Shown here piece by piece: positions 17,644-57,107 of a DNA stretch of 64,000 bases (positions are counted from its first letter, which is position 1; each line of letters starts with the position of its first letter). The notes under the pieces were generated by a model. That model was not told where the DNA came from, did no database searches, and was given only the letters and a program-made list of their open reading frames with translations. The position numbers and the translations under genes are program-made. The DNA comes from Pyrinomonadaceae bacterium (GTDB taxonomy: Bacteria > Acidobacteriota > Blastocatellia > Pyrinomonadales > Pyrinomonadaceae), in NCBI GenBank assembly GCA_036277115.1, contig DASUNM010000023.1, positions 62,001 to 126,000 of the forward strand. The letters run 5' to 3'.

Positions 17644-20157
17644 TTACCTGAATCCCTGGCCAATCTGCTCAGTCCCGAAAGTGCCGAGGCCGTTGAGGCG
17701 GAAGGCGAAGACCATGCGGTTCTCGCTCCGCAATGCCAGATTGAAGGTGAAGTACTGCATGGTGACGGCGCAGCACTTCCATGTGTAACCGAGCGTCGCG
17801 GTCGAGCTGACCAGCGCGCGCTCGCCGGCGAACGGATGCTTCTGAAAATCGAAGAACAGTGAGAGACCGCCGAATAATCCATTTTCACGATCACCAAAAA
17901 ATACAGACGGGCTCCATTGTGAGCCCCGCAATGTTCCCGGCTCAGCGCCCTGCGGGTTTGCAAACTGCCTGAGCGACGGCACCAGTTCAACCGCACGCGT
18001 GTAGTAGAAAGTTGAAAACGCTTCGATGATAGCCGTGCGATTGAAGCCCACCGTAGCCGCCATCGCCCGCAGCCCGCCGCCGCGCGTGTCGATGTCGCTG
18101 CGAAAGTCAGCGAACGTGTGCTGTGTCGGCCGATAACGCACGTCGATGTTCAGGGGCGAGAAGCGCCGCGGCACCGCGCCATAGCTAAAAGCCGAGAATG
18201 TGTCGATCGGATAGAACTGATTGCGCTGTCCGGGAATTAGCGCGCCGCCAAAGAACCGATCGAAGAAATACTTTCCGCGTAAGGTGATGGTCAACGCTTC
18301 GTAGGGCTGGGTCGCCAGCGAGTCTTTCTTCTCGCGCGCGAGTCGCGCTGCGGTCGGCCCGACACTTTCCGTGGAGCGACGCGTGAAGAAACGATTGGTT
18401 AAGCCGAACTCAATCTCGTTCGTGTTAGCGATCGCATCGACATAATCGAAACGAATGATCCGGTGAAAATCATCGATGCCTGCAATGCGACGATAAGTGA
18501 TGTACGGCTCGATCACGTGACGAAAGCGAACTGAGCCGTCGTCGCGGCGGAAGTTGCGGGCGAGCGCCGGCGGCCGCACGTCTAATTCAAATTCGCCGTA
18601 ACCGCGCACGACGTCGCGAGGCGTCACCAACTGCGTCACCGGGTCGAATGAATTGGAATAATAAGTGCCGCGCACGCCGGCCGTTGCGGTCACGGACCAG
18701 CCCGCAAACGTCAATGGCACCGAAACGACGGGATGAAAATCAAAACGCTGCACAATCGACGGAGTGAAGATTGGATCGCGACCCACCTCATCGCGGAAGA
18801 GGGCAAGGTCACCCGCGGTTTCTTTGCGGCTGACGCCTTCGACGCCACTCTCCCACGACAGATATACGGGCAGCTCCTTCAGCCAGCGCACAATCGATGG
18901 ACGGCGATCGAAATTAAGACTGGGCAGTTGACGAAGACGAATCTGGGAATTCTGAAGCGAGGTTGCTTGCGAATTCATCCGAAAGTTCAGGCTGTACGCG
19001 TTGTAGTTCTTGTTGATGAAAACCTGCGAACGCTCTTCCGGTGAAATCGCTTTCTGAATCGTGTCCGAAAACCTCTGCCGGAACGCCAGGTTCGAAGTGA
19101 TATTCACGTCGGCCGCCGCCAGGAAGCCATTGGGAAAGTAGTGCACCGCGTCGACGTAGAAGCTCGAGCCGCCCTCATCCGGATGATCCGCGTCTTCTTT
19201 CGGCCCGAGCACGCGATCTTTAACGATGAAAAATCCGAGGTTCATGAACGAGCGCGAGTTGGCTCGCGTCCGCAGGTCGCCACCGATTCCGTAACCGCGC
19301 TTCGAATACAAGTCTCCGCGCAGAGTGAAATCAGCCGACCGGCCGAGCGTCAGGTAGTAAGCCTCAGAAATTCGAAAGCCTTTTTCTCCCGACGCGCTGA
19401 AGGTCGGGGTTAAGAATCCGGAAGATCGATCGCGATGCTTGATCGAAATCGACACGTAGGGCATGAAGATCACCGGCAGGCGCTTGATGCGAAACGACGC
19501 CGACTTAATCCGCACTCGATCGCCCGTCTTGATCGTGGCTCTCTTTGCGCGAAAGCTCCACTTCGGAACTTCTTCGTCGCAGGCGGTGATTTCGCCGTTA
19601 ATGACGACAATGGTCGTCAGGTTGACCTTCTCGACACGATCGGCCGTGAAGTACATGCGCGTGCCGTCTTGCGTCTGGTTCGTATAGCCGGTCGAGTTGA
19701 CGAAGAAGCCTGTCTTCGTCCGGTAATTCCATTCCGCGTGACTGCCGGTGATGCGCTGCTGATCGCCCTGATCGAAAACTACGTTGCCTTCCGCGATTAC
19801 TTTGTTCGTCGCGTCGTAGACAGTTACTTTGTCGGCTTGCAAGCGATACGTGCCGATGCGGGCGTCAACGTTGCCTTCGCAAATCGACACCCGATTTTCT
19901 GCCGGCCCGGAAATGCTTTCCCGGTTACAAACGACGCTGAGCGATTCCGTGCTCTGCGCGCCTGGCTGCTGAGCGGTCACCGTCGGCCGGATCGGTTGAT
20001 CCTGTTGCAAAGGATTTACGTTCGGCGTGTCGGTAATCGGGTTCTCGACTTTGCGATCGACCGGATTGGGTTGTTGCGCTGCAACGCGCGTGACGACAAA
20101 AAGCGCCAGCAAGAGGCATGAGAGAATGGTCAGTACGCGCGAGCTTCGCAGCAGCAC
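17644..20157 (-). CDS. lptD: LPS-assembly protein LptD (OstA)
   Basis: LptD is the outer-membrane barrel that places LPS in the outer leaflet. After a signal peptide (LLLALFVVTRVAAQQ) comes the periplasmic OstA/LptA-like beta-taco (YRLQADKVTVYDATNKVIAEGNV..., ITGSHAEWNYRTKTGFFVN), then a long barrel region with alternating strands ending NRMVFAFRLNGLGTFGTEQIGQGFR. The open frame extends to an ATG at 20232, but that stretch is a dispersed repeat read as protein (LSPHPDPLPQGEG). The GTG at 20157 sits after a purine-rich GGGAGAGGGC and directly begins the signal peptide, so I start there. The pairing of lptD with divergent lpxB fits LPS biogenesis. Identification is confident; the start is inferred. 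Confidence 0.9.
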   Translation of the reverse strand: MLLRSSRVLTILSCLLLALFVVTRVAAQQPNPVDRKVENPITDTPNVNPLQQDQPIRPTVTAQQPGAQSTESLSVVCNRESISGPAENRVSICEGNVDARIGTYRLQADKVTVYDATNKVIAEGNVVFDQGDQQRITGSHAEWNYRTKTGFFVNSTGYTNQTQDGTRMYFTADRVEKVNLTTIVVINGEITACDEEVPKWSFRAKRATIKTGDRVRIKSASFRIKRLPVIFMPYVSISIKHRDRSSGFLTPTFSASGEKGFRISEAYYLTLGRSADFTLRGDLYSKRGYGIGGDLRTRANSRSFMNLGFFIVKDRVLGPKEDADHPDEGGSSFYVDAVHYFPNGFLAAADVNITSNLAFRQRFSDTIQKAISPEERSQVFINKNYNAYSLNFRMNSQATSLQNSQIRLRQLPSLNFDRRPSIVRWLKELPVYLSWESGVEGVSRKETAGDLALFRDEVGRDPIFTPSIVQRFDFHPVVSVPLTFAGWSVTATAGVRGTYYSNSFDPVTQLVTPRDVVRGYGEFELDVRPPALARNFRRDDGSVRFRHVIEPYITYRRIAGIDDFHRIIRFDYVDAIANTNEIEFGLTNRFFTRRSTESVGPTAARLAREKKDSLATQPYEALTITLRGKYFFDRFFGGALIPGQRNQFYPIDTFSAFSYGAVPRRFSPLNIDVRYRPTQHTFADFRSDIDTRGGGLRAMAATVGFNRTAIIEAFSTFYYTRAVELVPSLRQFANPQGAEPGTLRGSQWSPSVFFGDRENGLFGGLSLFFDFQKHPFAGERALVSSTATLGYTWKCCAVTMQYFTFNLALRSENRMVFAFRLNGLGTFGTEQIGQGFR

Positions 20158-20161
20158 ATCG

Positions 20162-20195
20162 CCCTCTCCCTGTGGGAGAGGGTCGGGGTGAGGGC
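20162..20195 (+). repeat. Dispersed palindromic repeat, family C (CCCTCTCCC type), copy 1
   Basis: CCCTCTCCCTGTGGGAGAGGG is an internal hairpin followed by a GTCGGGGTGAGGGC tail. It overlaps the 5' end of the long lptD frame. The same unit is found inverted at 20294-20327 and degenerate at 26172-26264. This element is widespread in bacterial genomes (recognised through its translated form SPHPDPLPQGEG). Confidence 0.85.
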
Positions 20196-20293
20196 TTAGC
20201 GCACCGTTCGTCTCTTGGATCTTTATTCTCAACTAACCGAACCACAAACGATGAAAGAAAGTTTCGTTCTTTGTTTACGGCAGCACTAGCTTC

Positions 20294-20327
20294 GCCCCTC
20301 GCCCTACCCTCTCCCAAAGGGAGAGGG
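20294..20327 (-). repeat. Dispersed palindromic repeat, family C, copy 2 (inverted)
   Basis: GCCCCTCGCCCTACCCTCTCC followed by CAAAGGGAGAGGG is the reverse complement type of copy 1, with the same CCCTCTCCC/GGGAGAGGG hairpin. Together the two copies make a 166-base inverted structure upstream of lptD. Confidence 0.85.
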
Positions 20328-20483
20328 AAACACAATTTTTTGAGAGCCTTGCAAATAGTCAATCGCGCCTTCTGCGAAGCGATGAACCCGCAGCCGGCGC
20401 GCCGTTTTCACTAAGCAAGTGCGCCGATGCTAACATGCGCGCGCGATGGGGAACAAGCGAGTTGCTGACGAACCGAAAGCGTG

Positions 20484-20632
20484 ATCATTTGACATTTGGC
20501 ATTTGAGATTTTTCATCTGGTCATTGCAATCTCGATGTTCCTTGCGATGTCGAACGGCAACCTTCTCTAAACGAGAACGCTCGCGACTTAAATGGCCACG
20601 TGACAAATGTCAAATGCCAAATCTCAAATTGA
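20484..20632. repeat. Word array (AAATGCCAAAT type), two inverted blocks
   Basis: Block 20484-20520 carries ATTTGACATTTGGCATTTG with AGATTT after it. Block 20598-20632 carries AAATGTCAAATGCCAAATC with TCAAATT after it. The 25-base cores are near-perfect inverted copies, and each core is itself built from the iterated word CAAAT/ATTTG. The second block encodes the first residues of the long lpxB frame. Confidence 0.75.
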
Positions 20633-29533: not shown

Positions 29534-32500
29534 TTAAGGGCTAATGCTTAGGACACCCGCATTGCTCGTCAAGCCGCGAAACGTGACTGAGACTGACACA
29601 TTACTGGAAAGCATTGGATCCAGCTTAACGATGATGTAGGAAATTCCTGGCACGCCTGCCAGCGTGCCGACAGCTTCCACTGTGAGCGGAATTCCTCCCG
29701 CCGTCACCGACAGATCGCTCGTCGGCTGCTTCAACCCGAGGTTCGAAGTGAAGATCATCACGCGTGTCCTCTGGTCCAAACTGAAATTGTGGGAACCAAC
29801 AACAGAAATCGGATCGCGGACCAACGTGACCGAATCGACCGCGATAGCATGATTATCGTCGTCTGTGATCAGGCGCGGCGAAGATTGATAGGCGACCAAT
29901 AAATTCGAAGCCGGCACGACAATCAGTCCGTCACCGGCGCCGAGTCCGGTGTGCGGCCGGGTGACCGGCGACTCGGTCGCCTGAACGGCCGCACCCAGGT
30001 TCCCCGTCCAGACGTTCGCCCCAGTATTCCCATCGAGAGCGTAGACCTTTCCGCTGCTCGAACCAATGTAAACGTAGCCGTTAACTACGATTGGCGCGGA
30101 AATGAGGGTGCCATCGCCCGTGAAGGACCACCGGATTGCCCCAGAGTAGGCGTCGCGCGCTCTTAGAATAGATCCGGAGAGGAAGAAACCTGTGGAGCCG
30201 CTGAATGCCGGAGGTGGACCTGCCGGGAAAGTGCCTAAAACCGCACCAGTGGGCGCATCGAACATCAGCTTTGGTGACAGAGAATCGCCCACATGCAAAC
30301 GCCCGCCGAAGAAGACTGGTGTACTTCCTCCTCCGCCGGTGCACCCCTCGGCATGTTCCCAGATCAGAGACCCGTCCTGAGGCGAAAAATCGTAAACGTT
30401 GTTGCAAGAAAATGCGACAAATACTCCATTTGAGGTTACGGCTGGTGAGCTGTCGTTGCCACTAAAGAGCAGGTTGGACCAATTCACTGTGCCATCCTGC
30501 TCATCAACGGCGTACAGTGTCACGCCCGAACCGGCCCCGACCACGTACACCACGCCATCTGACGCGGTCGGCGGTGAGTTGAACGAGTATTGCCCAGGAA
30601 GCTGCTTCGACCATAGCAGCGTGCCTGACGCTGCGTCGAAGGCGCGAAGGACGCCGTCGACATTTACCGCGAAGACGCGTCCCGAATCATAGGCGGCGTT
30701 GGACCAGCCATAGTTTCCTCCGAGATCGACGGGCCCCCACAACGTGGCGCCATTTGCCTCGTCGAGGGCATATAGTTTTGTGCCAGGGCTGGCTTGGTTC
30801 GCAACGGTGACGAAGATCCTGCCGCCGACGATTAGGGGATAAGAGATCTGACCGCCCAAGTCCCTGGACCACCGCTGCACCAGAGGTGGAACAACCGTGT
30901 CGAACTGCGCTCCGGTATGGGCGGCGTCGATTTGATAGGCCACTGCGCTCCCCTGCGTCGCCGGGGGTGTCGCCGCGGGAGTCGGCGCCGGGCAGAAGCT
31001 GCTCATTGACATCACCTGGAACGTGTAACTCCCTCCAAGTTCCGCTGTGCCGTTGACGGAGAAGACGACAATCGCAAAGCTGGTGTTGCCCGGAACCGTG
31101 AACTGGAACGACTTAATGTTAGGTGGGCTGCCACTACTAAGACCGGGATCACCAAGGTAACGGGATGCATTGGTGATGTCAGTCGCGACAAACGGCGCCA
31201 GGAAAGCCGCGATTTGATAGTTCGCGTTGGACTGGGAATTTACAGTCAACGCCGCTGATACACAGACTGGCGAGGGTGATGAGTTCGTTAGCGTATAAGC
31301 GTCGAATGGAAATGAGCCGGAACCAGTATTCCCGGGGAACGAATTGGTGCTGCAGGTGCCCTGCGCTTCGCCTCGAAACAATCGGGTTGTCATCGTACCG
31401 GTCGTTGCGGGTGCCGGCGGGCTGCCGAGGTTCGCTGTAAAACTGCAACTAGCGTTGGCTGGCGGTGTCGGACTCGGGGTCGGACTCGGGGTGGGTGTAG
31501 ACGGCAACTCGAATGTATAGGCCGCGCCAGTCTTGGAGTTCTTACCCACCGCACCGACCACCACTGTGTCGCCCTCGATCCCTACCGACGAACCAAACTG
31601 GTCCTGCGCCGCCGTATCACTCCCGGTGAGTTTCTGCACCTCTCCCCAGCCTTCAACGCCATTCTGATTGCGCTCGAAGATGTAGGCGGCACCACCAGTG
31701 GCGAGATTTATGGCCCAAGCTCCGACCACCAAGGTGTCGCCATCGATCGCTACGGAAATACCGAATTCATCCAGTAAATTCGCATCACTCGCAGTCAGTT
31801 CCTGCACCTGTCCCCAGCTTCCAACACCATTGTGATTGCGCTTGAAGATATAGACCGCACCACTAGTGGCGCGGTTCCCATGAATAGCTCCGACCGCTAA
31901 CGTGTCCTCATTGATCGCGACCGAGATACCGAATTGGTCGCCGCCTACACCATCACTCGCGGTTAGTCTTTTCACCTGTCCCCAGTTCCCAACTCCACCG
32001 TGATTGCGCTCGAAGATGTAGGCCGTGCCAGGGTTCTTGCCGTAAGCTCCGACCACCACTGTGTCACCGTTGATCGATGCCGAGTAACCGAAATACGCAT
32101 GATTTGCCGGATCACTGGCGGTCAGTTTCTTTACCTGTCCCCAGTTCTCAGCTCCACCCTGATTGCGCTCGAAGATATAGGCCGCGCCAACGGAGACATA
32201 GTCCGAGCTGGGGACAGTGCCGTAAGCTCCGACCACTACTGTGTCGGCGTTGATCGATACCGACGAACCGAAAAGGCCATTTGCGGCGGCATCACTGGCG
32301 GTGAGTTTTTTCACCTGTCCCCAGTTCTCAGTTCCGCCCTGATTACGCTTGAAGATATAAGCCGCGCCAGTGTTGGAGTTCTTAAGCCAAGCTCCGACCA
32401 CTACGGTGTCGACGTCGATCGCTACGGACCAACCGAACCGGTCATTTGCCGCCGCATCAACAGGAGTAACTACCTTCACCTGTCCCCAGTTCTCGGCTCC

Positions 32501-32929
32501 ACCCTGATTGCGCTCGAAGATGTACACCGCGCCAGTGTTGGAGTTTTTACCGTAAGCTCCGACCACTACTGTGTTGCCGCTGGTCGCTACCGAGTAACCG
32601 AATCGGTCATTTTCCGCCGCGTCGCTCGCCGTTAATTTCTTACTCTGAGTAATCTGGTACTGTGCCGCCTCGATCAAATTCTGCAGTCGAACATAAAGGC
32701 CATGCTCTTTCAGATAATCCTTGGCTGGCTTGCCTTGCAGGTTGAGCAGCGGTTGGGTCGATTGCGTCTGTGAGGCGTGAGCTAAATTATCCGAGGCCAG
32801 GCGTGTGGTCAGGCTGGGAACGCTGGTGGATGCGCTGTTTGCCTGAGAGTCGAACCGGCTCGTGGTTAATAGCAGCGCAAGGGCGACTAGAGCGAAGAGC
32901 GCCACGGAAACGACTGTGCGAGAGGGCAT
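29534..32929 (-). CDS. Secreted FG-GAP repeat / PQQ-like propeller protein
   Basis: 1131 residues with a signal peptide (VVSVALFALVALALLLT). Residues about 90-480 hold seven copies of a repeat of some 55 residues: LTASDAAxNDxFGxSVAI..DTVVVGA....GAAYIFERNQGG..NWGQV, which are FG-GAP/integrin-alpha-like blades. A Pro-Thr-Ser linker follows, then a domain of about 160 residues. Next are PQQ/BamB-like blades (KLYALDEANGATLWGPV, LRAFDAASGTLLWSKQL, LYAVDEQDGTVNWSN, VYALDGNTGANVW) and an Ig-like C terminus. The ATG has AGGAG 10 bases upstream. The repeats are also nearly identical at DNA level, so copy number may vary. Function unknown; cell surface or secreted. Confidence 0.82.
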   Translation of the reverse strand: MPSRTVVSVALFALVALALLLTTSRFDSQANSASTSVPSLTTRLASDNLAHASQTQSTQPLLNLQGKPAKDYLKEHGLYVRLQNLIEAAQYQITQSKKLTASDAAENDRFGYSVATSGNTVVVGAYGKNSNTGAVYIFERNQGGAENWGQVKVVTPVDAAANDRFGWSVAIDVDTVVVGAWLKNSNTGAAYIFKRNQGGTENWGQVKKLTASDAAANGLFGSSVSINADTVVVGAYGTVPSSDYVSVGAAYIFERNQGGAENWGQVKKLTASDPANHAYFGYSASINGDTVVVGAYGKNPGTAYIFERNHGGVGNWGQVKRLTASDGVGGDQFGISVAINEDTLAVGAIHGNRATSGAVYIFKRNHNGVGSWGQVQELTASDANLLDEFGISVAIDGDTLVVGAWAINLATGGAAYIFERNQNGVEGWGEVQKLTGSDTAAQDQFGSSVGIEGDTVVVGAVGKNSKTGAAYTFELPSTPTPSPTPSPTPPANASCSFTANLGSPPAPATTGTMTTRLFRGEAQGTCSTNSFPGNTGSGSFPFDAYTLTNSSPSPVCVSAALTVNSQSNANYQIAAFLAPFVATDITNASRYLGDPGLSSGSPPNIKSFQFTVPGNTSFAIVVFSVNGTAELGGSYTFQVMSMSSFCPAPTPAATPPATQGSAVAYQIDAAHTGAQFDTVVPPLVQRWSRDLGGQISYPLIVGGRIFVTVANQASPGTKLYALDEANGATLWGPVDLGGNYGWSNAAYDSGRVFAVNVDGVLRAFDAASGTLLWSKQLPGQYSFNSPPTASDGVVYVVGAGSGVTLYAVDEQDGTVNWSNLLFSGNDSSPAVTSNGVFVAFSCNNVYDFSPQDGSLIWEHAEGCTGGGGSTPVFFGGRLHVGDSLSPKLMFDAPTGAVLGTFPAGPPPAFSGSTGFFLSGSILRARDAYSGAIRWSFTGDGTLISAPIVVNGYVYIGSSSGKVYALDGNTGANVWTGNLGAAVQATESPVTRPHTGLGAGDGLIVVPASNLLVAYQSSPRLITDDDNHAIAVDSVTLVRDPISVVGSHNFSLDQRTRVMIFTSNLGLKQPTSDLSVTAGGIPLTVEAVGTLAGVPGISYIIVKLDPMLSSNVSVSVTFRGLTSNAGVLSISP

Positions 32930-57041: not shown

Positions 57042-57107
57042 TTTAGAGGCGGGCTACCGCCCGCCAGCTTCTTGCGCATCACGGGCGGGCAATAGCCCGC
57101 CTCTAAA
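57042..57107. repeat. Dispersed palindromic repeat, family D (TTTAGAGGCGGGCT)
   Basis: Arms TTTAGAGGCGGGCT (57042-57055) and AGCCCGCCTCTAAA (57094-57107) are exact inverted copies; inside is a further GCGGGC/GCCCGC-type hairpin. The stop codon of the amidohydrolase gene lies within the right arm. A degenerate copy is at 62157-62209. Confidence 0.9.

Follow-up and report, generated by a model that had tools for sequence, protein, structure and literature searches.

In the 64,000-nucleotide stretch of Pyrinomonadaceae DNA analyzed here (the window), the start region of lptD is occupied by a paired element of a dispersed repeat; the native start that is recognizable in relatives is missing, and the lptD reading frame stays open into the element. 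We propose that a paired miniature element, that is, two inverted TM/PIT hairpins around a variable interior, replaced the native lptD start region downstream of a conserved promoter-like box, with loss of the native GGAGG...TTG start in the source genome (G000, 4.85 Mb). Translation would now start at TTG 20232, inside the element, and run on through the second hairpin; the repeat-encoded stretch SPHPDPLPQGEG would extend the n-region of the signal peptide, and this added stretch would be cut off during export. Taken as a whole, this reading seems to us evenly poised between right and wrong. The features on which it rests are:

17644–20232, minus strand: lptD open frame (862 aa from TTG 20232, 837 aa from GTG 20157)
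20155–20157, minus strand: GTG, the start proposed in a preliminary description of this DNA (predicted opening cost 29-32 kcal/mol)
20162–20195, plus strand: triplex motif, type B, CCCTCTCCC-TGT-GGGAGAGGG-TCG-GGGTGAGGGC, the tail run being longer by one G
20196–20293, no strand assigned: interior of the paired element, containing TTG 20232
20230–20232, minus strand: TTG, the favored start, aligned with GTG in the congeners G001, G005, and G006
20294–20327, minus strand: second, inverted motif copy, type A-like, with a decayed tail
20426–20432, minus strand: extended -10-like box TAGCATC of TGTTAGCATC in the lptD leader, upstream of the element

The open frame matches the Pfam families LptD_2 (1.2e-11), LptD (2.2e-11), and LptD_N (1e-6), an lptD match is present in 38 of 40 genomes, and the divergent gene at 20607 is LpxB by Pfam. 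LptD is essential in Gram-negative bacteria. GTG 20157 opens MLLRSSRVLTILSCLLLALFVVTRVAA-QQ, a plausible signal peptide as judged by eye, and the frame stays open for 25 codons upstream of it, to TTG 20232. The minus strand from 20170 to 20155 reads GGGAGAGGG-CGAT-GTG; the hairpin CCCTCTCCC-ACA-GGGAGAGGG (20182–20162) has a perfect 9-bp stem and a 3-nt loop and ends 4 nt before GTG 20157, just ahead of that codon, as the preliminary description had it. The same description took the 25 upstream codons for repeat sequence; this is true of the paired element, which spans them, but the triplex motif itself (20162–20195) covers only about half, and 20196–20232 is element interior. The motif copy lies inside lptD or at its edge, depending on which start is used.

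The plus strand at 20162–20195 is letter-identical over 34 bases to TM_ECO no. 20 of Escherichia coli MG1655, as given in Table 1 of Holder 2015 (PMC4666352). As in the motif described there, the lptD copy combines the hairpin CCCTCTCCC/GGGAGAGGG with a short second loop (TCG at 20183–20185, as in TM_ECO no. 20, which is listed as type B) and a GGGTGAGGG third strand, and it is paired with an inverted, type A-like copy, the decayed partner at 20294–20327 that reads TA-GGGCGAGGG; lptD carries the whole paired element. Judged by its letters, the repeat is a member of the known E. coli TM/PIT intrastrand-triplex motif. The TM motif was formerly called PIT; an intrastrand triplex in single-stranded DNA has been reported in vitro for the E. 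coli sequence, and the five inverted pairs known from E. coli each combine a type A with a type B motif (PMC4666352). According to the same source, the E. coli loci vary between relatives, some motifs lie 10-310 nt from gene starts, and the motifs are always intergenic. The likeness to that system thus includes the identical 34-mer, the inverted A/B pairs, the unstable loci, and the proximity of some copies to starts; unlike the intergenic copies of E. coli, the present copy is located where a conserved gene starts, possibly within its coding frame, and many of the pairs here carry further shared arms. Of 5426 E. coli genomes, 3102 contain similar DNA, the best places being 97.3% identical over 37 bases.

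Hairpins were counted genome-wide with ≤2 mismatches allowed and with the reversed pattern as the control. The source genome contains 70 hairpins vs 0 for the control, and shuffles of the window give an expectation of 0.00 for the tail-plus-arm 21-mer, so the repeat is not a product of chance. The seven genomes of the genus (G000 to G006) contain 70, 142, 49, 27, 88, 301, and 11 hairpins, respectively, whereas each of 53 other genomes of the family and class contains 0-2 (control 0 throughout); because all seven members, and only they, contain 11-301 copies, we conclude that the repeat expanded in this genus. The hairpins sampled in G000 often form inverted pairs that are 45-286 nt apart and enclose a variable interior, and in many pairs the GGGTGAGGG tail is adjoined by the further arms GCGAAGCTTAGCG; the paired elements have the form of MITE-like terminal inverted repeats around a short interior. 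They resemble REP/REPIN sequences with RAYT (as described in PMC3733652) in being short, inverted-pair palindromes of high copy number in genomes that also encode Y1-type transposases (Y1_Tnp genes are present in all seven members of the genus); they differ in that the GTAG or CGTC tag is absent beside the lptD hairpin, which is flanked by CATCG and TCGGGG, and other copies of the palindrome are followed by TTA, CTG, TCG, and the like. Seven of the 60 sampled hairpins are tailless on both sides (loci L080, L088, L091, L096, L102, L106, and L108 of G000); such hairpins are what a pair would become by deletion between its identical arms.

The leaders of lptD orthologs locate the start that the element has supplanted. 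From 30 lptD loci we kept 27 distinct leaders (including L019), after dropping the duplicate L070 and the motif-less L071 and L072. The TAGCATC box is kept upstream in all 27, including the window, so the promoter-like box has been retained. GGAGG is present in 14 leaders, and in 13 of these (L003, L009-L013, L020-L022, L067-L069, and L073) an open, in-frame start follows at 11-17 nt (TTG; GTG in G002); in one of the 13, a further start occurs at 18 nt but out of frame. Modulo 3, the spacings include 0, 1, and 2, with every start in the lptD frame; because GGAGG falls in different frames, the stretch before the start is non-coding. The sole exception to the rule is G005, in which the element begins ~16 nt after GGAGG, close to the place expected for the start codon. 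In the element-free genomes G002 (GTG) and G004 (TTG; no GGAGG in the leader), the in-frame start lies 111 nt before a conserved NPVDR motif; in G000 the element occupies this position and the leader no longer contains GGAGG. The preliminary description suggested that the native start region had been replaced, and both the GGAGG rule and the comparison with element-free relatives speak for this; we regard displacement of the native start by the element as likely. The displacement need not be the insertion's doing, since starts have also been lost or moved in the element-free G004. The codon aligned with the ATG of G001 (78 nt before NPVDR) was considered as the native start and rejected, because the GGAGG rule gives 111 nt in G002. 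Family-wide, the lptD start seems to be TTG (GTG in G002) 11-17 nt after GGAGG, a spacing that is long but recurrent.

The leader alignment covers every genus member in which lptD was matched, six in all (G003 is without a match). In the lptD tree, G000 branches first within the genus, followed by G005, by G002, and then by G001 with G004 and G006; the element is present in G000, G001 (with the first hairpin decayed), and G005, is a relic in G006, and is absent from G002 and G004, so that the locus is unstable across the genus, as TM/PIT loci are in E. coli. Either one gain and two losses or several gains could have produced this distribution. The interiors of the lptD elements are alike (z 6.7 for G000-G001, 5.6 for G000-G005, 4.5 for G001-G005, 10.5 for G001-G006, and 3.3 for G005-G006), except for G000-G006 (z 0.7). 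This likeness suggests, at most, a single shared insertion, because the G005 interior is similar to those of other elements in G000 as well (z up to 7.9); such elements may resemble one another with z up to 10.6.

Where translation starts now is a question of TTG 20232 or GTG 20157. The latter could be served by the 3' arm GGGAGAGGG (20170–20162 on the lptD strand) of the triplex motif, which faces it with GAGG 5 nt away; the match to a Shine-Dalgarno sequence is good (AGGGAGAGG, hybridization -8.1, spacing 5), the resulting signal peptide looks normal by eye, and other conserved genes retain TM hairpins 7-10 nt ahead of their starts. The arm would have to be transiently freed, by breathing, by coupling to ribosomes that come from TTG 20232, or by co-transcriptional folding. 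It is base-paired in every predicted fold, whether the 46-nt local hairpin (-22.1 kcal/mol) or the long hairpin formed by the whole element is considered. Opening the region from the Shine-Dalgarno position to +12 is predicted to cost 31.6 kcal/mol (full leader) or 30.1 kcal/mol (local) at GTG 20157 and 6.2 or 3.9 kcal/mol at TTG 20232; the corresponding total energies are +23.4/+21.9 (+20.8 in a second computation) and +4.0/+1.7 (+4.1). Among 139 predicted G000 starts, a sample enriched in hairpin-bearing loci, GTG 20157 ranks at the 98.6th percentile for opening cost and the 97.8th for total energy, and TTG 20232 at the 64th and 35th. With a fixed window, opening gives 5.5-16.1 for the native starts of 13 orthologs, 29.0 for GTG 20157, and 11.7 for TTG 20232. 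The energy model is crude: for G002 it puts the native GTG at only +14.2/+10.0. With an opening cost of 29-32 kcal/mol and the arm paired throughout, these predictions lend no support to the preliminary description, in which the hairpin seems to supply the ribosome-binding site; as modeled, the hairpin probably hides that site rather than supplying it.

The congeners point in the same direction. In G006, the hairpins of which are decayed or lost, the GTG that aligns with TTG 20232 is the sole in-frame start, and G001 and G005 also have GTG at this position. In G005 there is no ATG, GTG, or TTG from the hairpin to the hydrophobic core of the signal peptide, so an arrangement like that of GTG 20157 is unusable there with these codons. 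On these grounds we regard a start at GTG 20157, with its transiently freed arm, as a tentative and less probable possibility. Several points speak against TTG 20232 as well: in G005, an ATC with AGGA 6 nt upstream could be the start instead; G001 has a good ATG with AAGG, 25 nt past the hairpin; and TTG 20232 is itself without a Shine-Dalgarno-like match, and TTG is weak as a start. Shine-Dalgarno-like motifs are in the minority here, being found at 29 of 105 predicted ATG starts vs 10 of 105 upstream controls. That the start is TTG 20232 rather than GTG 20157 or another codon is, in our estimate, an even proposition; we infer its use, translation of the hairpin, export, and cleavage from the evidence above.

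The paired element could instead regulate lptD in cis, as a translational valve or thermosensor whose long or local hairpins keep the start region closed until some condition opens it. Folding of the whole leader does surpass that of all 100 shuffles (z -3.85), and the Shine-Dalgarno-like arm is sequestered; such folding is expected of any hairpin repeat, however, two of the six congeneric genomes that have an lptD match are without the element and a third keeps just a relic, and the E. coli work in PMC4666352 gives no evidence for a general regulatory role or a general link with expression. We consider this very unlikely. We give as little credence to a neutral leader insertion with LptD starting downstream at CTG 20154 or CTG 20151 and the start codons of the element unused: these codons directly follow GTG 20157 and congeners differ in the positions of their candidate starts, but the codons are weak and the same closed structure lies just upstream.

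The positions of hairpins relative to other genes were surveyed for 60 of the 70 hairpins in G000 (those within the fetched stretches) and for 32 of the 49 in G002, using uncurated gene calls from a simple hexamer model. In G000, 51 of the 60 are intergenic; distances of ≤20 nt occur for 9 of 53 gene 5' ends and 11 of 49 3' ends, and in G002 for 2 of 34 and 4 of 29, respectively. Proximity to starts was considered as a sign of a ribosome-binding role, and we discard it as such: because the 5'- and 3'-end distances are similar in both genomes, hairpins near starts reflect tight packing. A hairpin precedes the conserved start of three other G000 genes by 7-10 nt, so a hairpin in this position is tolerated. 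Across the genus, a TM hairpin precedes the start of a sugar transferase gene (by 10-15 nt) in 4 of 7 genomes, of an FAD oxidoreductase gene in 2 of the 6 genomes read, and of a nuoN-like gene in 1 of 7; G004 may retain an eroded copy before the last of these genes. A broader proposal is that TM hairpins of this genus repeatedly settle at the ribosome-binding position of lptD and of the nuoN-like antiporter subunit, sugar transferase, and FAD oxidoreductase genes, bringing a buried Shine-Dalgarno arm or their own start codon and rewiring the starts of core genes genome-wide; we find this doubtful. For the sugar transferase (L106, with orthologs L140-L146), the start in G001 and G002 seems to be a CTG/TTG that overlaps the upstream stop codon. 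A tailless TM hairpin separates this stop from an ATG in G000 and G006.

The reading that we favor, replacement of the native start with translation from TTG 20232, would be a new case of a known kind, because in-frame fusions of MITEs with host genes are known from Rickettsia palindromic elements (RPE) and intragenic ERIC sequences (PMC10969869). Like those, the TM repeat is short, palindromic, and dispersed, and may become part of a host protein; unlike them, as described in that source, it has another sequence and would contribute a putative start and signal-peptide n-region rather than mature protein. In the open-access literature we found no paper on a TM repeat at lptD, nothing on a translated peptide of the repeat, and nothing on point for repeat-supplied start codons, ERIC-like cases, or the combination of lptD, TTG, and Acidobacteria. 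The case is neat but modest, its kind being already known; it provides a worked example of an unstable dispersed repeat that occupies the site at which translation of a core outer-membrane gene begins, and relatives that lack the element, carry it, or retain a decayed form of it can be compared directly. It also carries a warning to annotators: because the repeat is open in the lptD frame and carries GGGAGAGGG, gene callers can be misled to false or extended gene starts beside it.

Several other repeats were observed in the window. An Rfam search over the lptD region gave one sub-threshold match, RF04130 (28.3 bits vs a gathering score of 119), that covers an AT-rich inverted repeat. The first ATG of lpxB (20607) lies within the right arm of an imperfect inverted repeat, AAATGTCAAATGCCAAATCTCAAAT (20487–20511 and 20605–20629), that has one further copy elsewhere in the genome with 3 mismatches; MLVAGEASGD begins at a second in-frame ATG. 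At 57048–57107, another type of hairpin repeat, GGCGGGCTACCGCCCGCC / GGGCGGGCAATAGCCCGCC, overlies the start predicted near 57079 for a minus-strand ORF, and hairpins like it are found ahead of genes in congeners. At 31516–32641 there are six to seven tandem-like direct repeats (99-179 nt, ~165 nt apart, 62-80% alike), perhaps coding repeats.
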